A stretch of 38,183 nt of DNA from an uncultured Bacteroidales bacterium (GTDB taxonomy: Bacteria > Bacteroidota > Bacteroidia > Bacteroidales > F082), in contig ONKA01000023.1 of NCBI GenBank assembly GCA_900318265.1, forward strand, positions 11,221 through 49,403, written 5' to 3'. The number at the start of each line of letters is the position of its first letter. Within the stretch, counting starts at the first letter, position 1. The notes under the pieces are model-generated. The model did no database searches. It saw only the letters and a list, made by a program, of their open reading frames with translations, and had not been told where the DNA came from. Shown piece after piece: positions 13,174 to 28,305 of this stretch. Both the position numbers and the translations under genes were made by a program.

Positions 13174-13248
13174 GGGACGTTAGCCCAGTTGGTTTAGAGC
13201 GCTGCCTTCACACGGCAGAGGTCACTGGTTCGAGTCCAGTACGTCCCA
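13174..13248 (+). tRNA. tRNA-Val (anticodon CAC)
   Basis: A 75-base cloverleaf. Acceptor GGGACGT/ACGTCCC is perfect; anticodon stem CTGCC/GGCAG has loop TTCACAC with anticodon CAC (reads GUG); the T arm is ACTGG-TTCGAGT-CCAGT. CCA is not encoded. The last 15 bases (13235-13249, one base past the gene) are duplicated exactly at 28230-28244. Confidence 0.95.
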
Positions 13249-13249
13249 C
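13235..13249 (+). other. Possible attachment core in the tRNA-Val 3' end (left copy)
   Basis: TCCAGTACGTCCCAC spans the T-stem 3' half, acceptor 3' half and discriminator of tRNA-Val(CAC). The same 15 bases occur in the same direction at 28230-28244. tRNA 3' ends are the classic targets of tyrosine recombinases; the role as att site is inferred. Confidence 0.45.
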
Positions 13250-13262
13250 AACAAACGAAGAT

Positions 13263-13288
13263 AACCTGCTGATTTTCAGCAGGTTTTT
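13263..13288 (+). terminator. Terminator after the tRNA-Val genes
   Basis: AACCTGCTGA (13263-13272), loop TTT, TCAGCAGGTT (13276-13285) and a T run to 13288. Confidence 0.85.
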
Positions 13289-13301
13289 CTTTTTTCACAA
13301 G

Positions 13302-13324
13302 TTTTACCCCCTATTTTACCCCCC
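13302..13324 (+). repeat. Two direct repeats TTTTACCCCC next to the tRNA
   Basis: TTTTACCCCC at 13302-13311 and TTTTACCCCC(C) at 13314-13324, period 12. They lie about 50 bases past the tRNA end, where integrase arm-type sites or a transposition end would be expected. The rest of the 244-base gap to the next gene is AT-rich without other structure. Confidence 0.45.
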
Positions 13325-13459
13325 AAGATACCCTAAGTTCATGGTTTTGTGATGATAAGGTCTGTCTTGCAAGCATTGTTTTGACAATTTCTAAATTTCT
13401 CTACTATCGTCCGGTATATCTTTATTACCAATTTGACATATTGGGAAAACTGTTTTTTT

Positions 13460-13467
13460 TATTTTTG
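13460..13467 (+). promoter_or_regulatory. -7 element of the 655-residue protein gene
   Basis: TATTTTTG, 25 bases before the ATG at 13493. TTTG at 13432-13435 is 24 bases upstream, slightly too far for a regular -33 element. Confidence 0.45.
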
Positions 13468-13492
13468 CCTGAGAAAAACACAAATATCCCCA

Positions 13493-15460
13493 ATGGCCGA
13501 CTATTTTGATAATATAGCAAAGCAATTATTTGAAAATGATTTGAAAGATGTCCAAATAAATTCACGTGACATACCAATACACTCTACCGATACCATAGAA
13601 GGTGTTATTGTTGAAACACTTAAAGACAAGGGAATTATAGTTGATAACTATGATTTTTTGATAGGTATTGCCATTTGGGAGTACAATGTATATGTAAATA
13701 AATACCTTTATGAAAACGCATGTGTTTGGAATGGATATCAGGATGCTGTAAATAAGTACATCAACGAGTATTGCAAAAAATACGATATACCCCATGAGGT
13801 ATTACAGGCAATTGAAAGTGCATATCATTGGAAATCAACAAGAAAACTAGCATCTGAGTATTCTGCACCAATCTCCGTAATCTATAGCCAAAAGACAAGG
13901 CAGAGTTTAAGTGGAGAAACAGAATTTGAGAAAAAATGGAATGCATACATTCCACAAGATACAAGCCAGAGTGATAGTGAAATAGCAGAATTTGATAATT
14001 TTTGGGATGCGTGTGTTCCTTGTGAGTCAGGAATAATACCGATTGGCCTATTGCTTCGAAATGCTATAGATATCAACAACACTATTGTTGATAAGGACTT
14101 TATTAATCGGATTGAGTCCATTGAAGTATGTTATGGATATGTGGCAATAATTAACGATGCTTTACGCAGAAATTTAGTTGATGCTTTTTTTTATTATAAG
14201 CAAAGTAACTTAAAAGTGGCTCAACTGGTTTTTGAGGCGCTTGAATACTTTGTCCCTAGTACTTTCAATCATTCGTTGAACTTGATTTTAGCGCCATTGG
14301 TTGCTATTCACGGGTTATATCTCACTGAAAATGGTTATTTGACCCCAATGAAGTATCTGGAGCACAATTATCATTCGAAGGATGGTTTTACTGACGATCT
14401 TTTTGTTAGCAATGTTCAACTTGTTTTTAACGTACGTGGCTCTTTTGCACCTCTTGTTAAACAATGGGAAGAATGGAGAGGGCTGGTGTTACCATGTAAG
14501 AATTTGTGTAATATGATTTTTTCAGTGGTTTTGGGATTACAAGAAGGCAAAGAGGCAGACAGTAATTATTACTACAAAAAAATAACTGATAAAAATTGCA
14601 AAAAATTCGTTGATGATGTATTAAGAATAAAATCCATTTGCTCCTCTTTGGACGAAGGCTTTATTGATTCATATCTTCAAGATAGGGAGGATAAGAGTGG
14701 CAGATTTATTCGAATTGATAAGGAGTCTTTTCATATTGATTCTTGCCCTCCACGAGACATCAATTCGATGATTTGTGATCTTGACATTCCAACAAGGTCA
14801 GGCGCGGCACAAATTGATGAAGCTGAGAATGCATCTCCTAAAAAAGTCGCACAACCAGTTAATAATCCCACATGCCCGCATGATAATACTTCCTTGATCC
14901 TAAAACGAGCTGAAACGTGGCCATTGCCTTTTGACTTCTTTGAAACTGATTACATTGATGAAACATGTAAAGAAGGAGATTATATTCCGGGGTTCTTGTC
15001 GGGTATTGTGGATTTTAGTTTGATAGGAACTGATGTGACGGGTGAGGCCATGAAAAAAGGCTTCCAGTTATCCGGGTATTTCTCTGAATTAATCAATGCG
15101 CTTGCCAAAGAAGGATGCTTCAAAAATGATGACGAAACGAAACTTGCTTTCGCGCGTGCTCTAACAGGAAGAAGAATAAAAAGAGGGGTTAAATGGGAGG
15201 GATCGACTTTTGGAAAATGGGCTAATGTTATGTGCTATCTAACATGGAGACTATACGGAGGCAAATACGATTATATATCCAAAGTTTTCCCAGAACTCTT
15301 AAGAATAAAGAAGCTACAGAATAGCTATGCAAAAAACCTAAAAAAATACGATGGCATAACAAGTGCCATAGATGTCTTTCTGAATAAAGTGAAATACCTG
15401 TATTCAAACAAACAAGAGGAAGATACCCAGGTGCCAGAACAACCATCTTCGCCTGAGTAA
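13493..15460 (+). CDS. Unrecognised 655-residue protein in an AT-rich block
   Basis: A long intact soluble protein with no signal peptide or membrane helix. I do not recognise its family. It is Tyr/Asn/Ile/Lys-rich and its codons favour A/T at third positions, unlike the GC-rich neighbours, which suggests horizontal transfer. Residues 144-155 and 166-177 are a short internal repeat (EFEKKWNAYIPQ, EFDNFWDACVPC). A charged, Pro-containing linker (about 460-485) separates the N-terminal part from a C-terminal helical domain with ALTGRRIKRGVKWEG. That segment resembles C-terminal domains of Bacteroidales mobile-element proteins of the RteC sort, but only by impression. The start at 13493 follows a -7 element; the frame opens earlier at 13433 but upstream of the likely transcript start. 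It converges on a phospholipase D-like gene. Confidence 0.7.
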   Translation: MADYFDNIAKQLFENDLKDVQINSRDIPIHSTDTIEGVIVETLKDKGIIVDNYDFLIGIAIWEYNVYVNKYLYENACVWNGYQDAVNKYINEYCKKYDIPHEVLQAIESAYHWKSTRKLASEYSAPISVIYSQKTRQSLSGETEFEKKWNAYIPQDTSQSDSEIAEFDNFWDACVPCESGIIPIGLLLRNAIDINNTIVDKDFINRIESIEVCYGYVAIINDALRRNLVDAFFYYKQSNLKVAQLVFEALEYFVPSTFNHSLNLILAPLVAIHGLYLTENGYLTPMKYLEHNYHSKDGFTDDLFVSNVQLVFNVRGSFAPLVKQWEEWRGLVLPCKNLCNMIFSVVLGLQEGKEADSNYYYKKITDKNCKKFVDDVLRIKSICSSLDEGFIDSYLQDREDKSGRFIRIDKESFHIDSCPPRDINSMICDLDIPTRSGAAQIDEAENASPKKVAQPVNNPTCPHDNTSLILKRAETWPLPFDFFETDYIDETCKEGDYIPGFLSGIVDFSLIGTDVTGEAMKKGFQLSGYFSELINALAKEGCFKNDDETKLAFARALTGRRIKRGVKWEGSTFGKWANVMCYLTWRLYGGKYDYISKVFPELLRIKKLQNSYAKNLKKYDGITSAIDVFLNKVKYLYSNKQEEDTQVPEQPSSPE

Positions 15461-15475
15461 TATCACGTGGCATTT

Positions 15476-16000
15476 TCACCCTATCCTATCAATACACACA
15501 TCCTTCCGGCCACAGTTTTTACACCACGCCCCCATCCATACCATATCGAATTGGTTGATGGCGGCTTCAAGTAGTTCGGGGTCGTTGGTTAGTATGCCCG
15601 CCTCGAAATTGCGACGGTTTTCACTCTTCATCCCCATACCCGCGCCCGTCAGATTAGCGGAGCCGATGTATGCTGTCCCCGTGTCGAATATCATCAGTTT
15701 GAAATGCACCCTTGGACAACACACCCTTTCCAATTCAGTCGCAAGGATTGGGTAACGGTCAAAATCATCCCTAAACATCGGCCCTGGTTCCTTGGCGTGT
15801 ATCAACCTCACATCGACACCTTTCTTCAGCAAATCGGCAAGTACTGAAAGGAAAGGTTCGGATTCCTTGCCCTTCGTTACATATAGATCCTTAATGTCGG
15901 CCGTCCCTATCCATAATGATTGCTTCACCGTGGCCACCCTTGATATTACCTCGGTGTAGTGTTGCTCGTTTTGAATGTATGTGATGAAGGGCGATGGCAT
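15476..16000 (-). CDS. Single-HKD phospholipase D-like protein
   Basis: A 174-residue protein with one complete HKD motif: His99, Lys101 and Asp106 in VHFKLMIFD, followed by GSAN at 113-116. Single-HKD proteins (Nuc type) work as dimers and are usually nucleases or phosphodiesterases; the substrate here is unknown. The C-terminus CKNCGRKDVCIDR has three close cysteines that might bind a metal. There is no signal peptide, so it is probably cytoplasmic. It converges on the unrecognised 655-residue protein (15 bases apart) and has its own -7 element. It could be a DNA-repair, restriction or defence nuclease; the neighbourhood does not decide. Confidence 0.83.
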   Translation of the reverse strand: MPSPFITYIQNEQHYTEVISRVATVKQSLWIGTADIKDLYVTKGKESEPFLSVLADLLKKGVDVRLIHAKEPGPMFRDDFDRYPILATELERVCCPRVHFKLMIFDTGTAYIGSANLTGAGMGMKSENRRNFEAGILTNDPELLEAAINQFDMVWMGAWCKNCGRKDVCIDRIG

Positions 16001-16020
16001 GAAGCTGTGTTTTCAGTGGT

Positions 16021-16028
16021 CAAAAATA
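16021..16028 (-). promoter_or_regulatory. -7 element of the phospholipase D-like gene
   Basis: TATTTTTG on the minus strand 20 bases before the ATG; no consensus -33 at the right distance. Confidence 0.45.
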
Positions 16029-16056
16029 CGAAATAATCTGAGAACAATTAAGTAGC

Positions 16057-16087
16057 TTTCGGGCTGCGGCATTATTTTGTATCTTTG
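16057..16087 (+). promoter_or_regulatory. Promoter left in front of the umuC-like remnant
   Basis: TTTC at 16057-16060, 19 bases, then TATCTTTG at 16080-16087. It would start transcription close to the ATG at 16093, so the remnant keeps its promoter. Confidence 0.45.
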
Positions 16088-16092
16088 CGGAC

Positions 16093-16227
16093 ATGAAGCA
16101 GCGTACCTACATAGCCATCGACCTGAAATCTTTCTACGCATTCCGCAACCCAAGCCTGCGCCCGAATTGCGGATTCCCGATCAACTGTTCCGATACTGGT
16201 TCGGCGTCATTCCCGTGTGTTTCTTGA
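16093..16227 (+). pseudogene. 5' remnant of a Y-family DNA polymerase (UmuC/DinB-like) gene
   Basis: The first 16 codons read MKQRTYIAIDLKSFYA, the start of UmuC/DinB-type polymerases, in which the Asp of IDLKSFYA binds the catalytic metal. From 16141 the similarity stops: the frame runs on through FRNPSLRPNCG to a TGA at 16225-16227. The last 47 bases overlap the AraC gene end on the other strand. A full gene is over 1 kb, so all but the first 48 bases is gone. The promoter is still present. The break at about 16141 marks a deletion or rearrangement boundary between the AT-rich block and the AraC/export region. Confidence 0.65.
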
Positions 16228-17089
16228 AGTACTTGAAGAAAAACGACGGATTGGGGAAGTTCAACTCGTCAGAGATTTCCTTGATGCATAGGTTGCTATG
16301 TTTCAGCATTTGCTTGGCTTCAAGGATGACGTATTGGTCAATCCATTGCGGGGCGGAGAGGCCGCTGGTATCTTTCACGATTTTGGAGAGATATTTGGGA
16401 GTGATGCACAGCTTGTCGGCATAGAACCCTACGCCGCGTTCTTTGCTGTGGTGCCGGGTGACCAATTCGATAAACCGCTCAAAGACAATCTTGTGTCGCG
16501 TCGAAGCGGACTTCTCCTCGTCGTTTTGGCTCATAATCCGTTTGTTGATGAAACTACCGAAGAGGTAGAACACCGACGAAATCAGGTGACTGACGCTTTC
16601 GCAAGCATAGACATAGTCCGAGTGTATATACTTGTCAATCAGTTGAATGTATTCTTTTACAATGTAGAGTTCTTCTTCTTCAAGACGCATGCAGGGATTG
16701 TCTAAAAGGGTCATGGCCTCGTTGAGCATCTTGCTGATGTCGGAGCTGAAGTTGGACAAAAACTTGGGTGAAACGCCAATGACCGTCAGCGTGGGTTTGT
16801 CGGCAGATTCCTTAGGCTCCACGCTGATGATGTTTTGCGGCAGGTTCACCATAATCATCCCCTCCCCTATTTCGTATTCCTTCAGGTTGATGTGGCATTT
16901 GAAACTGCCGCTTTTGCAAAAGGCCACCACGTAGGCATCAATGCGGCATGGATGGCGCAACAGGTCGTAGTTGGCCTCGTTGGTGCGCTCCGCCATAAAG
17001 AAATCGTCACCTATATTAATGATGTCACCCGATGGGATGAAGTCTTTTGCCCTCAACAGGCTGATACTTGTTAGCTTTTGTGTTTCCAT
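16181..17089 (-). CDS. AraC-family transcriptional regulator
   Basis: A 302-residue protein with an N-terminal cupin-like sensory part (about 1-150, containing GSFKCHINLKEYEIGEG) and a C-terminal double helix-turn-helix domain (about 200-302), with YADKLCITPKYLSKIVK as the first HTH and IKEISDELNFPNPSFFFKYF plus HTGMTPNQYR as the typical AraC ending. It is divergent from the TolC/HlyD/ABC-2 operon across 157 bases, so it is probably its activator, and it may control its own gene. The inducer is unknown. The 3' end abuts the umuC remnant but the protein looks complete. Confidence 0.92.
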   Translation of the reverse strand: METQKLTSISLLRAKDFIPSGDIINIGDDFFMAERTNEANYDLLRHPCRIDAYVVAFCKSGSFKCHINLKEYEIGEGMIMVNLPQNIISVEPKESADKPTLTVIGVSPKFLSNFSSDISKMLNEAMTLLDNPCMRLEEEELYIVKEYIQLIDKYIHSDYVYACESVSHLISSVFYLFGSFINKRIMSQNDEEKSASTRHKIVFERFIELVTRHHSKERGVGFYADKLCITPKYLSKIVKDTSGLSAPQWIDQYVILEAKQMLKHSNLCIKEISDELNFPNPSFFFKYFKKHTGMTPNQYRNS

Positions 17090-17105
17090 TTGTTGAAATT
17101 TTCGG

Positions 17106-17113
17106 CAAAAGTA
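17106..17113 (-). promoter_or_regulatory. -7 element of the AraC gene
   Basis: TACTTTTG on the minus strand, 16 bases before the ATG, giving a very short leader. No clear -33 element. Confidence 0.45.
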
Positions 17114-17117
17114 GATA

Positions 17118-17202
17118 TTTTTAATTGATATTTGATTAAAAAATATGATTATTTCGACTTTTAGATAGTTTTCAGTTCCAAAAAGATTGCTTTTGGTCGA
17201 AA
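17118..17202. promoter_or_regulatory. Candidate operator region between AraC and the export operon
   Basis: The divergent gap holds two dyads: TTTTTAAT (17118-17125) with ATTAAAAA (17135-17142), and TTTCGAC (17152-17158) with GTCGAAA (17196-17202). The second pair has a 37-base interval. A shortened -7-like TACTTTG occurs near 17212. Binding by the AraC protein is inferred from position only. Confidence 0.25.
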
Positions 17203-17246
17203 AAGTTGCCGTTACTTTGCGCCATCAAACAAATGGAAAGAGCAAT

Positions 17247-18764
17247 ATGAACAAAAGACTGAAAATCAAGATGGTGCTGATGATTTGCTTAATGGCTGTC
17301 ACAGCGAATGCACAAAGGGTGCTGACTTTGGACGAATGTCACCGCCTCGCGTTGGAGAACAACAAGAAACTGAAAGTGGCCGAAACGGAAGTCGACAAGG
17401 CAAGGTACGAGATGTATTCCTCGTATGCCAACTACCTTCCCAAAGTGGAGGCAACGGGAACTTACATGCACAACAACAAGAGCCTCCAACTCTTGAGCGA
17501 TGAGAATCTGGCGACGCTCGGCAGCATCGGCACGATGACGCAAGCCCAAATCGATGCCTACCGCGAGGAACTGCTGCAGGTCTACCAAAGCGACCCGGCA
17601 GCGGTCATCGCTTGGACTTTGTTGCAAAACGACCCAACCGTCAACAAACTTGTCACCGACCTGATGAGCCTTAATGTTGAGGATGCCTTGAACCAAATCG
17701 GCGAGCAAGTGGGCGATGCGTTCAAAATCGACACCAAAAACGTTTATGCAGGCATAGTTTCCATTCAGCAACCGATTTTCGCTGGCGGCAAGATATATGC
17801 TTACAACCAGATTACCAAGGATTTGAAGGAACTGGCCGAGTCGAAGTTGGAGATGCAAGAGCAGGAAACGGTGGTCACGACGGACAAGGCCTATTGGCAA
17901 ATCGTTTCCATCGCCAACAAGTTGAAATTGGCCGAGAACTATACCGAGACGCTCCGCTCGCTGTCCAACGATATGGATAAGTTGGTGGCCGAAGGCGTGG
18001 CGACCACTTCCGACCAACTTTCGGTGAAAGTGAAGTTGAATGAAGCCGAAACATCCTTGTTGAAGGCGCAAAACGGCTTGGCGCTGTCGAAGATGCTGCT
18101 TTGCCAAATCTGTGGTCTGCCTTTGGATTCCAACATCATGCTGGCGGACGAGAACCTTGATGATGTGTTGGTGACGAACACTCATCCTTTCTATTCCGAA
18201 AGCGATGTCGAAGCCCATCGTCCCGAACTGAAATGCCTCAGCATCGCCAACGACATCTATGCCAAGAAGGTGTGGGTCACCCGCGCCGACTACCTGCCCA
18301 CAATTGGGGCTTTCGGCAACTATACAGTGAGCAACCCCTCGTGTTTCAACGGCTTCCAGAACGAGTTCGGCGGCATGTGGAACTTCGGCGTGATGGCCAA
18401 AATCCCTATCTTCCATTGGGGCGAGGGCTACAACAAGACGCGCATGGCCAAGGCTGAAGCCAAGATCCAGCAATATAACTATGAGGACTCGAAGGAGATG
18501 ATTATGCTTCAGGTACGCCAATGCGAAAAACAACTTGGCGAGGCCAATGCCCGTCTGAAGTTGACACAAGAGAAACTGAACGACGCTGACGAGAACCTCC
18601 GTATGGCGACGGCAGGTTTCCGTGAAGGCGTGGTGGAGTCGTCGGTCATCGACCTGGCACAAACGGCTTGGCTGCAAGCCCATTCGGACTATATCGACGC
18701 CAAAATCGACTGCATCATGGCGGGAGTGAACCTTCGCAAAGCCGCAGGAGTGAGTTTGAAATAA
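17247..18764 (+). CDS. TolC-family outer-membrane efflux protein
   Basis: A 505-residue protein with a signal peptide (to ANAQ) and two tandem OEP repeats. The mature start VLTLDECHRLALENNKKLKVAE and the second-repeat NARLKLTQEKLNDADENLRMATAGFREG are typical, with long periplasmic helices rich in Ala, Leu and Glu. It forms the outer-membrane duct of the export system encoded downstream. The frame opens at 17187, but MNKRLKIK at 17247 begins the signal sequence. The first repeat has a long insertion (about 75-165) between the strands. First gene of a four-gene operon, 16 bases before hlyD. Confidence 0.92.
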   Translation: MNKRLKIKMVLMICLMAVTANAQRVLTLDECHRLALENNKKLKVAETEVDKARYEMYSSYANYLPKVEATGTYMHNNKSLQLLSDENLATLGSIGTMTQAQIDAYREELLQVYQSDPAAVIAWTLLQNDPTVNKLVTDLMSLNVEDALNQIGEQVGDAFKIDTKNVYAGIVSIQQPIFAGGKIYAYNQITKDLKELAESKLEMQEQETVVTTDKAYWQIVSIANKLKLAENYTETLRSLSNDMDKLVAEGVATTSDQLSVKVKLNEAETSLLKAQNGLALSKMLLCQICGLPLDSNIMLADENLDDVLVTNTHPFYSESDVEAHRPELKCLSIANDIYAKKVWVTRADYLPTIGAFGNYTVSNPSCFNGFQNEFGGMWNFGVMAKIPIFHWGEGYNKTRMAKAEAKIQQYNYEDSKEMIMLQVRQCEKQLGEANARLKLTQEKLNDADENLRMATAGFREGVVESSVIDLAQTAWLQAHSDYIDAKIDCIMAGVNLRKAAGVSLK

Positions 18765-18780
18765 CAAAAAAAGAAATACT

Positions 18781-19782
18781 ATGAGCACATTAAAAGAACA
18801 AAGAGTGAACACGTATCTTGCATTAGGTGTGCTGGCGTGTGTGATTATCGTGGTTTGCGTGATCGGTATCATCACCTTCCACAAGGAAACTGAGTATCTG
18901 CAAGGTCAGGCCGAAGTGACCGAATACCGAGTCTCGAGCAAGGTGCCTGGCCGTATCCTTGAGTACAAGGTGCAGGAAGGCCAGAAGGTGCGCAAGGGCG
19001 ACACCTTGGCCATCCTTGAAGCCCCTGAAGTGGAGGCCAAGAAAGCCCAAGCCGAAGCCGTGGCAAAAGCGGCGAGAGCCCAAAGCGCCAAGGCACAGCA
19101 TGGTGCACAGAAAGGGCAAATCGAGGGCGCCTACGAGATGTGGCAAAAGGCGAAAGTGGGTGTGGATGTCATGGAGAAATCATTCAACCGCGTCAGCAAC
19201 CTTTACAAGGACGGCGTGGTGAGTGCACAGAAATATGATGAGACCAAGGCACAGTATGATGCCGCTATCGCAACGGAGAAAGCAGCCAAGTCGCAATACG
19301 ACCTTGCCCTTGAAGGCGCCCGTTCGGAGGACAAACAGATGGCTGCCGCTCAGGTATTGCAGGCACAAGGCGCTGTGGCCGAAGTCAATTCCTACATCCA
19401 CGAGACGGTGCTGACGGCATACTCCGACGGCGAGGTTACTGAAATCTTCCCCCATGTGGGCGAGTTGGTCGGCACAGGCGCTCCCATCATGAACGTGGCG
19501 ATGATGGACGACCAATGGGCCTCCTTCAATGTGCGTGAGGATGACCTGAAGCAGTTCCCCATCGGCAGTGAGTTTGATGCCTACGTGCCCGCCTTGGACC
19601 GTAGCATCCGCATGAAAGTCAGTTACATGAAGGACATCGGCGACTTCGCCGCATGGAAGGCCACCAAGGAGACAGGACAATACGACCTGAAGACCTTCGA
19701 GGTGCGTGCCACACCGCTTTCGACAAGTGAAGACCTGCGCCCGGGCATGAGCGTGATTGTGGAAAAGGAGCATAAAAAATGA
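18781..19782 (+). CDS. HlyD/EmrA-type periplasmic adaptor
   Basis: A 333-residue protein with one N-terminal membrane helix (about 12-32), a split lipoyl domain (YRVSSKVPGRILEYKVQEGQ near residue 45 and the matching half near 210), a long Ala/Lys/Gln coiled-coil hairpin (about 75-190) and a beta-barrel domain ending LRPGMSVIVEKE. It links inner-membrane transporter and TolC channel. The stop overlaps the first permease start by 4 bases. Similar adaptors are found with YhiI/YbhG-type ABC-2 systems. Confidence 0.9.
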   Translation: MSTLKEQRVNTYLALGVLACVIIVVCVIGIITFHKETEYLQGQAEVTEYRVSSKVPGRILEYKVQEGQKVRKGDTLAILEAPEVEAKKAQAEAVAKAARAQSAKAQHGAQKGQIEGAYEMWQKAKVGVDVMEKSFNRVSNLYKDGVVSAQKYDETKAQYDAAIATEKAAKSQYDLALEGARSEDKQMAAAQVLQAQGAVAEVNSYIHETVLTAYSDGEVTEIFPHVGELVGTGAPIMNVAMMDDQWASFNVREDDLKQFPIGSEFDAYVPALDRSIRMKVSYMKDIGDFAAWKATKETGQYDLKTFEVRATPLSTSEDLRPGMSVIVEKEHKK

Positions 19783-20960
19783 ATTCTGAAACGACAGAGA
19801 AGAAAGGCGTGTGGCGCGTGGTGCAGCGCGAGGTGGCTCGAATGCTGTCGCAGCCGGTCTATGTCTTCTGCATGGTGGTTGCCCCGCTGATCGGCTTCCT
19901 CTTCTTCACCACCTTGATGGGAAAAGGTCTGCCGATGGACATCCCTGTTGGTGTGGTCGATGAGGACAACACCTCCATTACCCGACAGGTGCTGCGCAAC
20001 CTCGACGCCTTCCAGCAGACCGCCATCGTCAAGCAATACGCCAACTTCGGCGAGGCACGCGAGGCGATGCAACAGGGCAAGATCTACGCCTTCTATTACA
20101 TCCCAGAAGGCACGACGGAGCTGGCACTCTCGAGCAAACAGCCCACCGTGTCGTTCTATACGAATGCAGCCTACCTGATTCCTGCTTCATTGGAATACCG
20201 CGACATGAAGACGATGGCGGAATTAGCCTCGGGTGCCATCGCACGCGAGACCTTGTATGCCAAGGGCTATGCCGACAGCCAAGTGATGGGCATCCTGCAA
20301 CCCATCAAGATGGAGATGCACGCCATCAGCAACCCGGGATTGAATTATTCCCAATACCTTTCCAACATCCTGCTACCCGCCATGCTGATGCTGCTTATCT
20401 TCCAAGTGACCATCTATTCCATCCATAGCGAGGTCAAAGAGGGTACTTCCAAGCATTGGCTCGAGCTGGCCGACAACAACATCTACAAAGCATTGGCCGG
20501 CAAACTATTACCTCAATTGCTGGTTTGGATGGTGATGGGCGCCACTTATTTAGTGTTGCTTTACGCCTATTGGGATTTCCCGCTAAAAAGCGGATTATGG
20601 CCGATGGCATTGGCATCGTTGCTACTGATTGTGGTCTCGCAGGCCTTTGGCGTGTTCCTTTGTGAAGCCTTGCCTTCCTTGCGCTGGGCCTTGAGTATTG
20701 CTACCTTGTGGGGCGTGCTTTCCTTCCCGATTTCAGGGTTTTCGTTTCCACAAATTGCATTTCCAGCACCGTTGAAAGCCCTGTCGTATCTCTTCCCGCT
20801 GAGGCATTATTACCTCATCTATGTCGACCAAGCGTTGAACGGCTTGCCGCTGCATTATTCATGGGTCAACTATGCGGCTTTGTTAGTGTTTCTGGCATTG
20901 CCCTTGTTGTTCCCCAACCGATTGAAAAAGTGTTTGTTAGAATATCAATATACAAGATGA
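19779..20960 (+). CDS. ABC-2 type permease (first)
   Basis: A 393-residue inner-membrane protein with the YhhJ/YbhS plan: helix near residues 30-48, a large periplasmic domain (about 50-185, starting MDIPVGVVDEDNTSITRQVL), then five helices including SLRWALSIATLWGVLSFPISG. These proteins form the membrane half of an ABC exporter. No nucleotide-binding domain is present in this protein or in the operon. It overlaps both neighbours by 4 bases (ATGA), so expression with the second permease is tightly coupled. Confidence 0.88.
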   Translation: MNSETTEKKGVWRVVQREVARMLSQPVYVFCMVVAPLIGFLFFTTLMGKGLPMDIPVGVVDEDNTSITRQVLRNLDAFQQTAIVKQYANFGEAREAMQQGKIYAFYYIPEGTTELALSSKQPTVSFYTNAAYLIPASLEYRDMKTMAELASGAIARETLYAKGYADSQVMGILQPIKMEMHAISNPGLNYSQYLSNILLPAMLMLLIFQVTIYSIHSEVKEGTSKHWLELADNNIYKALAGKLLPQLLVWMVMGATYLVLLYAYWDFPLKSGLWPMALASLLLIVVSQAFGVFLCEALPSLRWALSIATLWGVLSFPISGFSFPQIAFPAPLKALSYLFPLRHYYLIYVDQALNGLPLHYSWVNYAALLVFLALPLLFPNRLKKCLLEYQYTR

Positions 20961-22174
20961 AATGGTTGCATAACATATTGGAAGTTTTCCGCGAGGAACT
21001 CCACAACTCGATATTCGACGAGGGTGTCATCGTGTTTTTCTTCGTCGTGCCGTTGCTATATCCGTTGCTTTACGCCTATCTTTATGGCAATGAGACCGTG
21101 CGCGAAGTGCCAACCGTTGTGGTCGATTTGGCCAACTCCACCACTAGCCGTGAGTTTCTGCGCAAGGTGGATGCCACAGCCGATGTTGAAATCGTGGGAC
21201 ATTGCGCCGACATGCAAGAGGCGAAGGATTTGATCCACCGTCGCAAGGCACATTGTCTCATCTACATCCCCGTCGAGTTCGACTACGCCTTGATGGAAGG
21301 TCGGCAGGCCGTTGTGGAACTGTATTCCGACATGGGCAGTATGCTGTATTACAAGGCGGTGCTGGCTTCGTGTACCGAGGTCTCCTTGGCGATGAACCAG
21401 GACATCAAGACACAGCGCTTAGTGGGAGCCACCGAAAAACAAGCCTCCACCTTTGCCTATCCCATCAAGTACGAATATGTCCCGATGTTCAACACGCAGA
21501 GCGGTTTCGCCACCTTCCTGATTCCGGCGGTCTTGGTGATGGTCATCCAGCAGACGATGGTTTTGGGCATCGGCATGATGGCTGGCGAGGAAACCGAGAA
21601 AAAACGTCGCGGCATCCTTGAGCCACATGTCATCGGGGAAAAACCTATCGAGATGCTTTTCGGCAAGAGTGCGGCCTATCTCGCCATCTATTCGGTGATT
21701 TCGGCCTACGTCTTTTGCCTTGTGCCGCATTGGTTCCACCTCATCCAAATTGGCAAGTGGACCGATTTGGTGGCGTTCCTGTTCCCCTATCTGTTGGCAT
21801 GCCTCTTCTTCAGCATGACGCTTTCGAGCATTGCGTACAACCGTGAGGTCTTCATCATCATGTTCGTATTCGTCTCGGTGCCGTTGCTGTTCATCTCGGG
21901 CATTTCGTGGCCTACATGCTCTGTACCGGAGTTCTGGAAAGTGGTTTCATGGCTATTCCCATCGACCTTTGGCATCAATGGCTACGTGAAGATTAATAGT
22001 ATGGGTGCTGTGCTCCGCGATGTGAAGCCCGAGTTGATTGGCCTATGGGTACAAACCTTTGTCTACGGCATCACGGCATGGTTGTTGTACTATCGTTCCT
22101 ATGGCAAACACCTGAAAGACATCATCGAGGTGGCTGAAGAACGCTTGCAGGCCCGCTGGGCAGATTATCTATAA
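20957..22174 (+). CDS. ABC-2 type permease (second)
   Basis: A 405-residue homologue of the first permease, with REVPTVVVDLANSTTSREFL in the periplasmic domain and a membrane half containing GIGMMAGEETEKKRRGILE and FISGISWPTCSVPEFWK. The frame is open from 20708, but the first permease occupies that DNA and the ATGA overlap at 20957 gives the start, as in the other junctions. The two permeases probably form a heterodimer. The energy source is open: an ATPase encoded elsewhere or another mechanism. Confidence 0.88.
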   Translation: MKWLHNILEVFREELHNSIFDEGVIVFFFVVPLLYPLLYAYLYGNETVREVPTVVVDLANSTTSREFLRKVDATADVEIVGHCADMQEAKDLIHRRKAHCLIYIPVEFDYALMEGRQAVVELYSDMGSMLYYKAVLASCTEVSLAMNQDIKTQRLVGATEKQASTFAYPIKYEYVPMFNTQSGFATFLIPAVLVMVIQQTMVLGIGMMAGEETEKKRRGILEPHVIGEKPIEMLFGKSAAYLAIYSVISAYVFCLVPHWFHLIQIGKWTDLVAFLFPYLLACLFFSMTLSSIAYNREVFIIMFVFVSVPLLFISGISWPTCSVPEFWKVVSWLFPSTFGINGYVKINSMGAVLRDVKPELIGLWVQTFVYGITAWLLYYRSYGKHLKDIIEVAEERLQARWADYL

Positions 22175-22207
22175 AGACAAAAATTCGACAAAATAAAACT
22201 TATCATC

Positions 22208-23182
22208 ATGAAAAAAGTATTTTTAAGTTTGGTGCTTTTCTGTGGCTTGGCCCTCATCAGCACCAGTTGCAACAAAGACAACAACACAGTAACCCCCGAA
22301 GTGGAAGAAGGAGCTGTGACTGTCGGTAGCAAAACTATGGACATCGTCGCCTCCAATGCAGTCAAATATGGCCAACAAAATGCCATTGTCCTCACTTCCA
22401 AGGAAATGACTGCCGCTGACAACGAAGGCATTGCTATTATTTTCAACGGCGACATTGTCCCTGGCACCTACACGATTGGCGAAGATACCAAGAGTACGGT
22501 TCCTCAAGTGGTCGGCCTGCATGAGTTCAACATGGGTGAATTGCCTTTCCTTATGGGTGCCGACACGCTGTATTTTGGCGACACTTACTTTTGGGTCAAT
22601 GGGCAACTCTCCATCACTGAAGACAACGGCACTTACACTGTCGTTTTGTCACAATGCGTAGGCACCAATGCCAACGGACATGATGTCAATATGGCTCTGA
22701 ACTTCAATGGCACTTTGCCCCCATACGTCTTCGACACGAGCAACAAGTTCCAAATCAAGGATATCGAAAGCCCCATAGGACTGGCAGGCATCACCACACT
22801 CAACAATCTAAGCTCTTTGGGGCTCGATGTCAAGTCAATGCTCTTCATGTCGGCCGACCGCAAGCGTTTTTTCATCGTCAGCTATTTGGGTGGTCAAGTC
22901 GTGGACGGCGAATACCAGCTTGGATATATCGGCACACCATATCTGCCCCAATTCCCATGCGTGCATGTCGCTCTCGACAGCGATTTCTTGACTTTCCAGC
23001 CCCAAACGGGCTATATTGCCCAAAGCGGCACCATGAAAGTGGTCACCAACGACGACGGCACCAAGACCGTTATCATGGAAAACCTCAAACTGAAAAACGT
23101 GGAACACGACAACGAGTTCTTCTTCCCAGTCATTGACGGCTCGCTGCAATATCACGGTTACATGTATGAACTAAGCCTTTAA
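22208..23182 (+). CDS. Lipoprotein of unknown function
   Basis: A 324-residue protein with a lipoprotein signal ending ISTSC and then NKDNNTV; an acidic/charged start after Cys is typical of surface-exposed Bacteroidota lipoproteins. The mature part is Gly/Thr/Asp-rich and predicted mostly beta (for example GTYTIGEDTKSTVPQVVG, GTMKVVTNDDGTKTVIMENL). The two halves may be related beta domains. It begins 33 bases after the second permease with no evident promoter or terminator, so it may be read from the export operon. Function unknown. Confidence 0.72.
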   Translation: MKKVFLSLVLFCGLALISTSCNKDNNTVTPEVEEGAVTVGSKTMDIVASNAVKYGQQNAIVLTSKEMTAADNEGIAIIFNGDIVPGTYTIGEDTKSTVPQVVGLHEFNMGELPFLMGADTLYFGDTYFWVNGQLSITEDNGTYTVVLSQCVGTNANGHDVNMALNFNGTLPPYVFDTSNKFQIKDIESPIGLAGITTLNNLSSLGLDVKSMLFMSADRKRFFIVSYLGGQVVDGEYQLGYIGTPYLPQFPCVHVALDSDFLTFQPQTGYIAQSGTMKVVTNDDGTKTVIMENLKLKNVEHDNEFFFPVIDGSLQYHGYMYELSL

Positions 23183-23232
23183 AAGCAAGACAAAACCAGA
23201 AAATAAAACTCATTTAATCAAAACAATCAACA

Positions 23233-23838
23233 ATGAAAAAAGCATTAGCAATCGTGGCTCTCGTAGCCGCCATGTTCGTTGCCGGAAACGTGCAGGCACA
23301 ATCAACCATTTATGCAACTTATGCTCCTGAGACTTTTGTCGCTGGCAGCAACAGCACGAATTACCAAGGTTTCTCAGTCGGTTTCTCACAGAACATCGAA
23401 TTGGCCAAAGGTATCGGAGTGGCCGCCGGTGCCCAATTCCGCATGAACATGAGAAACACGACCCAAACCATTTGGGGCATCACCGGCAAAACAAATGAAA
23501 CCCAGACCATCATTGATGTGCCGATTTTGTTCAACTATAAGGTTGCAGTCAACCGCGACTTGGCCATCGTTCCGTTTGTCGGCCCTATGCCGAGTATTGC
23601 CCTTACGGGTGTCACAAAAGGCGCCGACCCCCTCTTTGGCGAAAACAGCTACGACTGGTACGGCGACAACAGCAACCAAAGCCGTTTCAACCTTTACGCC
23701 GTGTTTGGTGCCGATGTGAAGTTTGCCAACTTCAACCTGTTCGGCGGCTATCGTCTCGGCCTGCTTGACCTCGACAAAACCGATAACGCTTCTTTGAAGA
23801 CCAACGGACTGTTTGTCGGACTCGGCTTTACGCTTTAA
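23233..23838 (+). CDS. Small outer-membrane beta-barrel protein (paralogue 2)
   Basis: A 201-residue protein, close paralogue of the gene at 10050. It has the same signal peptide (AIVALVAAMFVAGNVQAQS), GIGVAAGAQFRM, DVPILFNY, YDWYGDNS, RFNLYAVFGADVKF and the C-terminal LKTNGLFVGLGFTL. Differences are concentrated between residues 75 and 155, the likely external loops. The DNA of the signal-peptide region is almost identical in both copies, which implies recent duplication or gene conversion. Fifty bases follow the lipoprotein gene; a terminator follows. Confidence 0.85.
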   Translation: MKKALAIVALVAAMFVAGNVQAQSTIYATYAPETFVAGSNSTNYQGFSVGFSQNIELAKGIGVAAGAQFRMNMRNTTQTIWGITGKTNETQTIIDVPILFNYKVAVNRDLAIVPFVGPMPSIALTGVTKGADPLFGENSYDWYGDNSNQSRFNLYAVFGADVKFANFNLFGGYRLGLLDLDKTDNASLKTNGLFVGLGFTL

Positions 23839-23861
23839 TAGATTAGGCTTAAATCATTTGG

Positions 23862-23889
23862 AGCCGGCCTTATGGGTCGGCTTTTTTTT
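23862..23889 (+). terminator. Terminator after the second beta-barrel gene
   Basis: AGCCGGCC (23862-23869) pairs with GGTCGGCT (23875-23882, one G-T), 5-base loop, then T run to 23889. Confidence 0.85.
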
Positions 23890-23890
23890 G

Positions 23891-23898
23891 TACTTTTG
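23891..23898 (+). promoter_or_regulatory. -7 element of sdaA
   Basis: TACTTTTG directly after the T run of the preceding terminator, 17 bases before the ATG. No separate -33 TTTG is visible, since that region is the terminator stem. Confidence 0.5.
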
Positions 23899-23915
23899 CA
23901 TCAAAACTCATCGCC

Positions 23916-25118
23916 ATGAAAACCATCAAAGACATCTATAAAATCGGCATAGGCCCTTCAAGCAGTCACACGATGGGGCCGCAAAAGGCCGCCTCCATCT
24001 TCAACGAACGTTATCCGGATGCTTCGGCGTTTGAGGTGACGCTTTACGGCAGTCTCGCCGCCACGGGCAAAGGACACATGACCGACTGGGCCATTCTCAA
24101 CACTTTGCAGGCCCCGACCGAAATCATTTGGAAACCTGATGTCGTTTTGCCGTTCCATCCTAATGGCATGTTGTTCAAGGCTTTCGATGAAAGCAAGAAC
24201 CTTATCGGCGAGTGGCAGGTGTTCAGCATCGGAGGAGGCAACCTCGCTGAGGAAGGCAAACAGAGCGAACAGCCTGACATTTATCCGTTGGGCAAGATGA
24301 CTGACATCCTGAACTGGTGCGAACAACGAGGGCGTACCTATTGGGAATATGTCTACGAATATGAGAACCAACAAGAAATCGAGGCCTACATGATGGAGGT
24401 GTGGCAAGTGATGAAAGCCGCCGTCGAGCGCGGATTGCAAGCCGAAGGCGTGTTGCCTGGACCGCTCAACCTGAGCCGCAAGGCCGCCATGTATCATATC
24501 AAGGCTTCGGGCTATACACATACCTTGCGCAACCGTGGCTTGGTGTATTCATACGCCTTGGCCGTTGCAGAGGAAAACGCCTCTGGTGGACGGATCGTCA
24601 CTGCGCCGACTTGTGGTTCCTGCGGCGTGATGCCGGCGGTATTGTATCACCTTTCGAAAAACTATGAGTTCACAGACCAACGTATCATCCGCGCCTTGGT
24701 GACGGCGGGATTGGTGGGTAACATTGTGCGCACCAATGCCTCCATTTCGGGTGCCGAGGTAGGCTGTCAGGGCGAAGTGGGAGTGGCCTGTGCCATGGCC
24801 GCTGCTGCCGCCAACCAGCTGTTTGGAGGCAGTCCGGCACAAATAGAATACGCTGCTGAAATGGCTTTGGAGCATCACCTCGGTATGACTTGCGACCCGG
24901 TTTGCGGCCTCGTGCAGATTCCCTGCATCGAGCGCAATGCATACGCTGCCGCCCGTGCCCTTGACTCCAACATTTACTCCACTTTCTCCGATGGCCGCCA
25001 CCGCGTGTCGTTCGATAAGGTGGTGGAAACCATGAAGGAAACGGGCAAGGACATACCTTCACTATATAAGGAAACCTCCAAAGGAGGTCTCGCCCGCGAT
25101 TATGCCCAGATGGAATGA
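23916..25118 (+). CDS. sdaA: L-serine ammonia-lyase, iron-sulphur type
   Basis: A 400-residue single-chain serine dehydratase that converts L-serine to pyruvate and ammonia in the cytosol. The beta domain is N-terminal ([22 protein letters not shown]) and the alpha domain C-terminal. The [4Fe-4S] cluster cysteines lie in [15 protein letters not shown] and [14 protein letters not shown]. The length fits the one-gene type seen in E. coli and Bacteroidota. It has its own promoter and no partner gene. It converges on the patatin gene with only 5 bases between stops and no visible terminator. Confidence 0.95.
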
Positions 25119-25123
25119 TAGAA

Positions 25124-26038
25124 TCACTCTTTTTTGATGTTTCCTTTTCTTATAGTCCTGATGGCCGTCATTCCTTTTTCTATGGTATTACGGAATATCT
25201 CCTCTGGGTTTTTCAAGTTGTCTTTCTTGTGTTTTTTCTTGGGGAATTCGATGACTTCCTTGGGCATAATACGCTGATAACCGTTCTTTTCCAAGGCTTT
25301 CACGGCACTTTCGTAGCCACGGAAAAACAGATCTTCGATCTTTGACATATCGTAAGCCGTGCAACCATAGGTGTCGAGTTCGATGAAGAGATCTGCTTGG
25401 GCAGAGTCGACTGCTACGTTGGACACCATCATCATCATAAACGAACGATAAGCTACCGATATGAGATTATCCTTATATTTGTCCTCTTCCAAATGGTTGA
25501 GGTTGAGTGCAATGACCTTCTCACATTTTTGTCGTATGGCCGACACAGGCAGGTTTTGGAAAGCGCCGCCGTCGACGTAATGGATTCCGTTGATGTATTT
25601 TGGTTGGAAGATGACCGGAATGGAGCATGAGGCCACCACACGAGGAGCGATTTCACCTTTAGTGAACACTTTCGGCACACCATGTTCAATGTCGGATGCA
25701 ACGAGGAAAGTCGGTATAGGCAACTCTTCCAAACGACTATAAGGTAATTTTTCCTGAATCAATTCCGACAACGGACGCGAATCAAACAATCCCCCTTTGG
25801 GCACACTTGGTGTGACGATATCCTTGAAAAAGTTCATGCCCTGAAAGGTTTCTATCATTTGTTTTGGAGTGAAACCCGATGCGTAGAGCGCCGCCACAAG
25901 AGCACCTGCACTAGTGCCCGACACCACATCAGGTTGGATGCCATATTCTTTCAGTGCCTGAAGTGCACCACAATGGGCCGCAGCCTTGGCACCGCCACCA
26001 CTGAAGGCTATACCCAGCGGATATTTCTTTGTTGCCAT
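25124..26038 (-). CDS. Patatin-like phospholipase (RssA type)
   Basis: A 304-residue protein with the patatin fold: oxyanion loop GIAFSGGGAKAAAHCG (residues 9-24), nucleophile Ser43 in GTSAG, and catalytic Asp156 in DGG. In the oxyanion loop the usual final Gly of GGGxxG is Ala (GGGAKA), a small departure. There is no signal peptide, so it is probably cytoplasmic, like RssA. Likely acyl-ester hydrolase on phospholipids or lysophospholipids. The C-terminus is long and Lys-rich. Monocistronic with a -7 element upstream. Confidence 0.9.
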   Translation of the reverse strand: MATKKYPLGIAFSGGGAKAAAHCGALQALKEYGIQPDVVSGTSAGALVAALYASGFTPKQMIETFQGMNFFKDIVTPSVPKGGLFDSRPLSELIQEKLPYSRLEELPIPTFLVASDIEHGVPKVFTKGEIAPRVVASCSIPVIFQPKYINGIHYVDGGAFQNLPVSAIRQKCEKVIALNLNHLEEDKYKDNLISVAYRSFMMMMVSNVAVDSAQADLFIELDTYGCTAYDMSKIEDLFFRGYESAVKALEKNGYQRIMPKEVIEFPKKKHKKDNLKNPEEIFRNTIEKGMTAIRTIRKGNIKKE

Positions 26039-26056
26039 AAGGAATGTCTTTTTCTT

Positions 26057-26275
26057 TTATTTATTGACACTGCAAAAATACAAAATAACACGGAACGATG
26101 CCATTTTTTTGACAACGTCCTGCTCAATGAGGTTGCCCTGCATGTCGTATTTGTAGAACATGTAAAGCACGTTCGACGACTTGCCCCATGTGGTGGTGTA
26201 GATGTTCTCGCCATCATAGAACACACCGTGCTGACGACTTGTCGAAGTGGTGAACGAGAACACCAACCTGGTCAC
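26057..26275 (-). pseudogene. Fragment of a decayed secreted-protein gene
   Basis: A 72-codon open stretch without a proper start (only GTG) contains HGVFYDGENIYTTTWG and SSNVLYMFYKYDMQGNLIE, which read like one repeat of a large secreted Bacteroidota protein. The sequence then degenerates (DVVKKMASFRVILYF) into the patatin leader. Upstream the frame meets a stop at 26285-26287. It has codon use like the neighbours. Most likely a gene remnant; a chance frame is less likely given its composition. It covers most of the 309-base gap between the patatin and glycosyltransferase genes. Confidence 0.4.
26073..26080 (-). promoter_or_regulatory. -7 element of the patatin gene
   Basis: TATTTTTG on the minus strand, 34 bases before the ATG; no matching -33 element. 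Confidence 0.45.
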
Positions 26276-26294
26276 AAACCGCCTTCAAAAAGAC

Positions 26295-26310
26295 GTTGTA
26301 AAAATACAAC
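26295..26310 (-). terminator. Weak hairpin after the glycosyltransferase gene
   Basis: GTTGTA (26295-26300) and TACAAC (26305-26310) with a 4-base loop; on the minus strand GTCTTTTTG follows. The stem is short, so its use as a terminator is uncertain. Confidence 0.3.
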
Positions 26311-26347
26311 TTTCTTTTGATATAGAGGCAATTACAAAAAGAGAACT

Positions 26348-27505
26348 CTACGCCTCAACGAAAGTGCAGTAGTCCTTGTAAACGTCCCGCACGACATCGT
26401 CCCAGTTGAGGTAGAGGTCGCGGCGGGCGGCGGCGGCGATGCGTTCATAAGCCTCCGGGGCGGCCATGATGTCTATAATCATTCGCGCATAACTGTCCTC
26501 GTCCGGAGGACAAACATAGCCGTTGACGCCAAGCGTGACGGTGGCTGCCGTGCGAGCACCTTCCAAGAATACGGTGGGCGTACCTTGGCAAGCTGCTTCA
26601 ATCTGCACTAACGAGTTGGCATCATAAAGTGAAGGGAACAGGAAGAGTTTGGCGCGGGAATAGAGGTTTTCCAGCATCTCCTTGTCCGTCAGGCCACACA
26701 TGACCACTTCTTCGTTCAAGCCCTGTTCTTGCACGAGGGCGGCGAGTTTCTCCTCGTCCTGCCCCTTGCCGGCGAACAACATCCGGAAGTTCTTCAGGCC
26801 CATCGCCTTGGCTTTCGCCAAAGCGCGGATAGTGAAGTCTATGTTCTTGATGAAATTAATCCGTCCGACGAAAAGGAAAACTGTGGCATCGGCAGGGATG
26901 CCGTAGGTCTCGTTGACGATTTGGGCGGCTTTCTCGGGGTTGGCAACAGGGCTGTGGTCGGTGGCATTGAGGCGCACCTTGCAGGGCGCGGTCAGACCGT
27001 ATTCATGGACATAAAGGTCTTTGATGCCGCCGTTCACGGCCCAGCACTCGTCGCAGGCGTTGAACACACGCATGATGGTGTCCATCGCTATGTCCACGGT
27101 CAACTTGAGCTTGAGCGACTTCTCGAAATCCTGCTTGTACTGCGAATGCAGGGTGGCAACCACGGGTAGTTTGTGTATTTTGGCGTACATTACTCCCGCC
27201 AGACCTACCGAAAAAGGAGAATGAATATGAACAAGGTCAATACCGCTCATAATCAGCTGCGCCTCGAACCGTGGGTCCAACGCAGGCATGGGAAGGTCGT
27301 AGTCGGTTGTAATGAGCGGCAGAGACGAGCATCGCACGACTGGGTACGGCAGTTTTGCATCCTCCTTGCGATCAAAGCCTTTGGCTTCAGGGCAGAACAC
27401 CACCACCTCGCAATATTGCACCAATCGGCGTGCGTAGTTGTCCACCACTTTGATTACTCCGTCCACCATGGGGTACCATGTGTCGATGAAAAGTCCAACT
27501 TTCAT
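26348..27505 (-). CDS. GT4-family glycosyltransferase
   Basis: A 385-residue GT-B enzyme. The N-terminal acceptor domain begins MKVGLFIDTWYPMVDGVIKV, with DLVHIHSPFSVGLAG and LHSQYKQDF. The C-terminal donor domain has FVGRINFIKNID, an active-site FPSLYDANSLVQIEA with the conserved final Glu, and GTP. The pattern is close to diacylglycerol alpha-glucosyltransferases and other lipid or mannosyl transferases of family GT4, so the product may be a glycolipid; the exact sugar and acceptor cannot be told. Length is normal. It lies 50 bases downstream of the truncated DUF362 gene on the same strand and no own promoter was found. Confidence 0.88.
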   Translation of the reverse strand: MKVGLFIDTWYPMVDGVIKVVDNYARRLVQYCEVVVFCPEAKGFDRKEDAKLPYPVVRCSSLPLITTDYDLPMPALDPRFEAQLIMSGIDLVHIHSPFSVGLAGVMYAKIHKLPVVATLHSQYKQDFEKSLKLKLTVDIAMDTIMRVFNACDECWAVNGGIKDLYVHEYGLTAPCKVRLNATDHSPVANPEKAAQIVNETYGIPADATVFLFVGRINFIKNIDFTIRALAKAKAMGLKNFRMLFAGKGQDEEKLAALVQEQGLNEEVVMCGLTDKEMLENLYSRAKLFLFPSLYDANSLVQIEAACQGTPTVFLEGARTAATVTLGVNGYVCPPDEDSYARMIIDIMAAPEAYERIAAAARRDLYLNWDDVVRDVYKDYCTFVEA

Positions 27506-27555
27506 AGCTGCTCTTAATTCATTGAAATAACGTGACTTTTGTCTTCTTTAGTTCA

Positions 27556-28227
27556 TTATTCTGCTTCGTCAATGTTCACGATGGTGTATTTGCGGCTACC
27601 GAGCCCAATGGTTTCAGCATGCTCAATGGTGTGGACACCATGCTGCTTGTCAATGCGGTTCAGCAAGTCGGTGGGGTCGTTGGTAGCCGTCACCTGTTGG
27701 TTGTTGATGATGTCGACGCAGGCTTGGTCCAAGGCCACAGGATCAGTGGAGGCAAGGATGCCGTAGTCTTCGAGCTTCACGGGGGCGGGATGGTCCACGC
27801 AGTCGCAGTCGATGCTCATGTTGTTCATCACGTTGATGTAGATGATGCCATCCTTCTTCTGGAAATAGTCCACCACGGCCTGCGCAGCGGCAGCCATGCT
27901 TTCGAGGAAGCCGTCCTGGTTGCCGATGTATTCCTTTGTCCAAAGTTTCGCCATATCGAGCACTTCCATCTTGCCAGCGGAGTGGATGTAGGCCTTGCCG
28001 TTCGAACTGGCGCAGCCGATGCTGAGGTTCTTCAGTGCGCCGCCGTAGCCGCCCATCGGGTGACCCTTGAAGTGGTTGAGGGCGATCATGAAGTCGTAGT
28101 TGGCGATATGGCCGCCCACAATGTCGTACTTGAGGTGCGTCGAGTCCTGCACGGGGATGCGCATCTCGCCCTCCTCGTCCATGATGTCCACTTTGAACAG
28201 GGGCGTGAATCCGTGACGCTCGATCAC
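27556..28227 (-). pseudogene. DUF362 protein gene lacking its 5' end
   Basis: The frame encodes 223 residues of a DUF362 protein: NYDFMIALNHFKGHPMGGYGGALKN, IGCASSNGKAYIHSAGK and LASTDPVALDQACVDII are typical of the middle and C-terminal parts. The N-terminal part of the family (around 100 residues or more) is missing. The only starts are GTG at 28227 or nothing, and just upstream (28230) the DNA turns into a tRNA 3' end plus terminator. The upstream codons (VVGGTYWK) are read from that tRNA fragment. So the gene is truncated by a rearrangement. Function of DUF362 proteins is unclear; some carry ferredoxin clusters, none seen here. Confidence 0.72.
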
Positions 28228-28229
28228 CT

Positions 28230-28244
28230 TCCAGTACGTCCCAC
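28230..28244 (+). other. Possible attachment core (right copy): orphan tRNA 3' end
   Basis: TCCAGTACGTCCCAC, identical to 13235-13249. Here it is followed by CA, giving an encoded CCA, and by a tRNA-style terminator, but no tRNA body precedes it. It looks like the downstream half of a tRNA-Val gene, or the right end of an element that inserted there. Confidence 0.45.
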
Positions 28245-28250
28245 CAACAA

Positions 28251-28278
28251 CAAAACCCGCTGGTTTCAGCGGGTTTTG
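28251..28278. terminator. Terminator after the C1 peptidase gene (and of the orphan tRNA end)
   Basis: A 12-bp stem (CAAAACCCGCTG at 28251-28262 with 28267-28278), GTTT loop. On the minus strand it ends in TTTTG for the peptidase gene; on the plus strand it follows the tRNA-like tail by 7 bases. Confidence 0.8.
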
Positions 28279-28305
28279 CGTTTTATTGAGCGCTTCTATA
28301 GCGTG

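Follow-up and report, generated by a model that had tools for sequence, protein, structure and literature searches.

Introduction

Integrases often use T-loops, and coupling sequences are a known feature of CTnDOT recombination by IntDOT. Genomic islands residing in tRNA and tmRNA genes have been mapped by Islander (PMC4383910), and a secondary attachment site has been described for Salmonella genomic island 1 (PMC2297512). Here we analyzed a stretch of 38,183 nucleotides from an uncultured Bacteroidales bacterium (contig ONKA01000023.1), hereafter the window, to which all positions refer unless a contig is named. The preliminary description of this DNA had noticed the 3' end of a tRNA-Val gene repeated 15 kb away and compared the two copies with attL and attR of an integrated element. 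The genome holding the window is designated G000, and the other G-numbered genomes belong to the same genus, in which the named relatives are mostly from ruminant guts; all results rest on draft assemblies. We propose that positions 13,250–28,229 probably constitute an integrase-less island, i.e., an integrative element in tRNA-Val(CAC) that lost its right end via recombination at a secondary site. Islands in tRNA genes are of a known kind, and this assignment is well supported here. The unusual feature of this island is that an end lacking the integrase has arisen twice at the same position of the tRNA.

Results

The Repeat and the Insertion Site

The 15-bp sequence TCCAGTACGTCCCAC occurs as two exact copies on the plus strand, at 13,235–13,249 (attL copy) and 28,230–28,244 (attR copy), and no further match with up to three mismatches was found in the window. 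The expected number of exact copies is ~7e-5. Shuffled windows contained on average 0.56 approximate matches (≤3 mismatches), with at least two in 13 of 100 shuffles. The entire 2.98-Mb assembly of G000 contains only these two exact copies and two places with two mismatches, neither of which lies in a tRNA. The left copy forms the 3' end of the tRNA-Val(CAC) gene (13,174–13,249, plus strand), the regenerated target gene, directly preceded by tRNA-Val(GAC). The right copy lacks a tRNA body and is followed by CA and a hairpin terminator (28,245–28,285, plus strand), so that both copies are as first described. ARAGORN predicts a tRNA-Val(CAC) of 76 nt in the window vs. 78 nt in relatives. The relatives' genes encode the CCA end, and window positions 13,174–13,251 encode a CAA end after the insertion; CCA would therefore need to be added post-transcriptionally.

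The preliminary description had suggested searching related genomes for tRNA-Val(CAC) followed directly by the right-hand terminator. We found this arrangement, with the gene running directly into the flank from 28,245, in 13 other genomes of the genus (G003, G066, G092, G095, G010, G105, G030, G119, G021, G031, G024, G002, and G012). G012 was counted though its tRNA partly reads N, and short matches to the terminator only (G089, G096, G097, and G098) were left out. These empty sites match the right flank of the window at 95–99% identity over 53–140 bp. Of nine genomes tried, eight align with the joined flanks of the window over the full 459 bp, and G003 does so over 366 bp. The left flank, comprising a peptidase gene and the two tRNA-Val genes, is contiguous with the right flank from 28,230 in G021, G031, G024, and G002. 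Because the flanks are contiguous in relatives, 14,980 bp and one repeat copy have been inserted in the window, and the right copy represents the displaced original 3' end, since in relatives a complete tRNA-Val(CAC) stands immediately before this flank. We examined 68 other copies of the 15-mer in the genus. Upstream of 60, the tRNA sequence extends past the T-arm (reaching only to the contig end in two of them), seven have the T-arm only, and one, in G016, has neither.

We also considered a 28-bp repeat at tRNA-Val(CAC), with TCACTGGTTCGAG before the 15-mer, found as seven partial copies in five genomes (G027, G071, G095, G106, and G114). It represents another att type, which does not account for the window. 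In G114:C12 (4,177–62,841), the tRNA-Val(CAC) end occurs twice, 58.65 kb apart, with the 28-bp repeat, and a different type of element apparently targets the gene there.

An Integrase-bearing Element Family

The first 150 bp after the tRNA (13,250–13,400, plus strand) contain a terminator and the blocks TTTTACCCCCTATTTTACCCCC and CTTGTTTTGA..TCTAAATTT, presumably arm sites. They align with five other element termini, residing beside tRNA-Val(UAC) in G029:C1, beside tRNA-Ala(CGC) in G019:C2 and G089:C95, and, in G023:C1 and G114:C3, at the end of the tmRNA, that of G114 being named by sequence as its contig carries just the last bases of the tmRNA. TTTTACCCCCTATTTTACCCCC occurs with up to two mismatches in five of 99 genomes of the genus (G000, G089, G019, G029, and G023). 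The window shares this conserved left terminus with an integrase-bearing family targeting the T-loops of tRNA-Val, tRNA-Ala, and tmRNA genes. One complete member, in G019:C2, has its repeats 39.5 kb apart. In G029:C1, repeats at 10,568, 69,251, and 78,211 delimit two tandem family elements behind tRNA-Val(UAC) (10,568–78,225) of 58.7 and 9.0 kb, each with an integrase and the 15-bp repeat at its end.

The left edge of the family repeat falls at the T-loop boundary GGTTCGAG/C|TCC. TCC is preceded by GGTTCGAG in intact tRNA genes and by GGTTCGAC in tmRNA. We examined nine other attR sites (G019, G089, two in G029, G018, two in G024, G114, and G028), all of which have non-tRNA sequence up to TCC; the start is exact in seven and ambiguous by one shared base in two (G029:C1:69251 and G114). 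The right copy of the window starts at the same boundary, right after GGTTCGAG/C of the intact gene. The repeat in G028 and G024:C47 is the tmRNA end found in G114, G023, and G016. The right edge of the repeat is not fixed among the pairs measured (15 bp in G029 and the window, 19 bp in G019, 24 bp in G114, and 27 bp in G089), and the last five bases before the repeat vary among the ends, e.g., GACCT, AACAA, AAGCG, and GACCC. The attL/attR reading of the preliminary description is thus borne out by the 13 empty sites and by a left end and a left repeat boundary matching those of an integrase-bearing family.

The family integrase is a tyrosine integrase of 450 residues, with the Pfam domains Phage_integrase and Phage_int_SAM_5 above cut-off. 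Its gene starts 217–330 bp from the repeat at the attR sites measured and is open, or cut only by the contig end, at eight of the nine sites and broken at one (G089). Short matches to it were found in G031:C36 and G014:C361. Neither G000 nor G016 showed a match at E 0.001, an absence that is uncertain because these genomes are 89 and 77% complete, respectively. As first reported, no integrase was found in the DNA between the repeats: Pfam scanning of the 13 larger ORFs of the insert revealed none, nor any relaxase or type IV secretion genes as in ICEs or IMEs. Instead of an integrase gene and P-arm, DUF362 coding sequence abuts the right repeat of the window. A search for more integrase-less attR sites with a pattern of non-G before TCC returned 37 matches in 34 of 99 genomes. 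Apart from known attR sites and tRNA genes, the matches look like chance among the 31 that were read. One of them, in G034:C4, is an exact tRNA-Ala 15-mer but lies within a stop-free frame of 453 codons.

Two Breakpoints in the DUF362 Gene

The DUF362 gene (27,556–28,229, minus strand) has lost its 5' side at the junction. The gene continues intact past the break in G029, which has a 319-residue version, and in G112. The letters TCCAGT are shared at the break and are identical to the start of the repeat. They occur once in 16,080–28,235 on either strand, at the breakpoint itself, where about six occurrences would be expected by arithmetic from length.

A second junction of this kind was found in G016:C226 (CACXXW010000226.1, RUG11691), a 3.4-kb contig whose left side has no link to an attL. 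It follows window positions 25,941–28,161 at 99.96% identity and then enters the identical tRNA boundary. The two genomes have the tRNA boundary in common, and their DUF362 breakpoints differ, 28,229 in G000 vs. 28,161 in G016, i.e., 68 bp deeper. Six bases are shared at the junction in G000 and 0–1 in G016, where the breakpoint shows no core-like sequence. By eye, DUF362 contains at 28,140–28,153, just left of the G016 breakpoint, a further occurrence of TCGAGTCC, which belongs to the tRNA T-arm. The right flank in G016 is nearest to that of G031 among ten compared, not to that of G000, so that the two junctions lie on different backgrounds.

Gene Content and Spread of the Cargo

Next to the left terminus lies an ORF of 655 codons (13,493–15,460, plus strand; 675 codons from TTG at 13,433) without any Pfam, PHROG, or PADLOC match. 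Within its C-terminal region, a part is similar to a 541-residue ORF at the edge of a G034 element (E 1e-6), and no resemblance was found to the 582- and 550-residue ORFs of two G029 elements. The following PLD-domain gene (15,476–16,000, minus strand) has one relative inside a complete family element of G029:C1; in G112:C56, a further relative neighbors an integrase and tRNA-Gln. The weak PADLOC matches of this ORF to DrmC are probably explained by the PLD domain that both share. A remnant of about 16 codons (16,093–16,139, plus strand) derives from an element dinB/Y-family polymerase gene, found in full in the G019 element.

The cargo includes an AraC-type regulator (16,181–17,089, minus strand; Pfam HTH_18) and exporter genes (17,187–22,174, plus strand; Pfam) for an outer-membrane factor, an HlyD-type adaptor, and two ABC-2 permeases; an ABC ATPase for this exporter was not found among the 13 insert ORFs scanned. 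Downstream reside a 324-residue ORF without Pfam match and an outer-membrane β-barrel ORF (22,208–23,838, plus strand), a second copy of sdaA encoding L-serine ammonia-lyase (23,916–25,118, plus strand; 80% identical to the native copy in G000:C45), a patatin-like phospholipase gene (25,124–26,038, minus strand), and a GT4 glycosyltransferase gene (26,348–27,505, minus strand).

All or parts of 16,142–28,229 occur near-identically, at 97.5–100% over the aligned pieces, in eight other species represented by one genome each (G029, G034, G021, G016, G105, G106, G112, and G121); the pieces are short in G121 (~3.0 kb) and G112 (460 and 155 bp). The island sdaA of G000 is 99.8–99.9% identical to those of G029, G034, G021, and G106, and 99.5% identical over 187 bp to that of G105. 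The native sdaA genes of eight genomes are only 75–81% identical to the island gene, and those of the seven genomes other than G000 are 77–91% identical to the native copy of G000, differing by 9–23%. Near-identical cargo across species whose native sdaA genes diverge indicates recent horizontal spread within the genus. The regulator-exporter cluster is not peculiar to the island, as diverged versions exist elsewhere in the genus (88% identity in G069, 85% in G111, and ~76–82% in others). A plasmid search gave a single match, of 76% identity over 203 bp, in an L-serine ammonia-lyase gene, and neither junction of the window was found in viral contigs.

The ends of the shared block differ among the genomes. 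It stops at 26,039 in G105, G021, and G106, at contig ends in the latter two, and continues past 28,235 in G029 and G112. In G112, its left edge adjoins a PLD gene, another integrase, and tRNA-Gln(CUG). In G034:C2, at ~181,400, the cargo is cut inside the GT4 gene (window 26,954) and joined to mobile-element-like genes. The patatin gene in G105:C49 (14,562–14,568) has a deletion of ~70 bp (window ~25,871–25,940) with seven shared bases at the break.

Discussion

An intact tRNA gene at one end, its displaced 3' fragment at the other, an uninterrupted site in 13 relatives, and foreign, horizontally shared cargo characterize positions 13,250–28,229 as a tRNA-gene island. The empty sites and the family termini show that an integrative element of the tyrosine-integrase family entered tRNA-Val(CAC) at its T-loop, rebuilt the gene, and displaced the original 3' end rightward, and the island demonstrably carries a shared cargo block. 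The integrase would then have made its normal cut at the tRNA boundary, with the cut end being joined to a secondary site in the DUF362 gene of the cargo. Such recombination of the att repeat with a site in the cargo would have removed the right end together with the integrase gene and P-arm, stranding an island that probably cannot move without an integrase acting in trans.

Among the three origins suggested by the preliminary description, decay of the element fits this scheme, and recombinational joining of two halves probably applies to the right-hand junction alone. The third, a chimeric contig, here with the false join at 28,229/28,230, is very unlikely. A draft, metagenome-type assembly and near-identical cargo in several species do pose an assembly and binning hazard, but the shared stretch is just 6 bp, the left junction matches true family termini, and a separate assembly, G016, has its junction at the identical tRNA position with a different flank haplotype. 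Breakage and joining without any integrase, fusing cargo to the tRNA end by chance in both genomes, is very unlikely: the six and 0–1 shared bases resemble those of ordinary end joining, yet both junctions fall exactly at the boundary of the nine other attR sites examined.

The island could instead be mobile itself, a helper integrase excising and inserting it in trans via its fixed left arm and repeats, and the arm-less right end being trimmed during transfer, hence the DUF362 ends of both G000 and G016. The tRNA boundary and end gene common to two backgrounds (the G016 flank being nearest to G031 among ten) and the related integrases in other genomes of the genus speak for such transfer. We nonetheless consider it unlikely, as the right P-arm of intact members is absent, no circular form was seen, and the G016 contig with the left block (C93) has a different context, resembling that of G021. 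Loss of the right end by secondary-site recombination remains the likeliest account, even though it leaves the closeness of the two DUF362 breaks unexplained: that one gene should have suffered two separate deletions within 68 bp of each other is strange. Also counting against it are the G016 breakpoint, with its lack of core-like sequence, and the second att type active at tRNA-Val(CAC), with the 28-bp repeat, and no integrase-bearing version of the island in this gene was found among the genus genomes examined. A tentative and rather unlikely extension is that the family integrase makes one-sided errors, cutting exactly at the tRNA T-loop boundary but joining it to almost any cargo DNA. This would repeatedly generate islands whose tRNA end is fixed and whose cargo end is ragged, and these might still move in trans.

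The locus shows a cargo block spreading between species beside tRNA-targeting elements and illustrates how an island can be stranded, with one tRNA boundary used twice with different cargo breaks. It further suggests an integrase family versatile in its targets, whose crossover boundary can be inferred in the T-loops of several tRNA genes and tmRNA. A description of this 450-residue family was not found in the literature searched, which is weak evidence of novelty.

As with CTnDOT and IntDOT, ends that are otherwise alike differ in the bases immediately preceding the repeat; the family described here, in contrast, targets T-loops of tRNA and tmRNA genes, and coupling sequences are a candidate explanation. 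Like the islands mapped by Islander (PMC4383910), the locus has a regenerated tRNA at one end and a displaced fragment at the other, and intact members of its family carry a tyrosine integrase. Unlike them, the copy in the window is devoid of the integrase and right arm and ends on the right in a truncated gene of the cargo. Salmonella genomic island 1 (PMC2297512) is likewise a tyrosine-recombinase island with a secondary site, which is chromosomal there, whereas the site proposed here lies within the cargo and would serve deletion.
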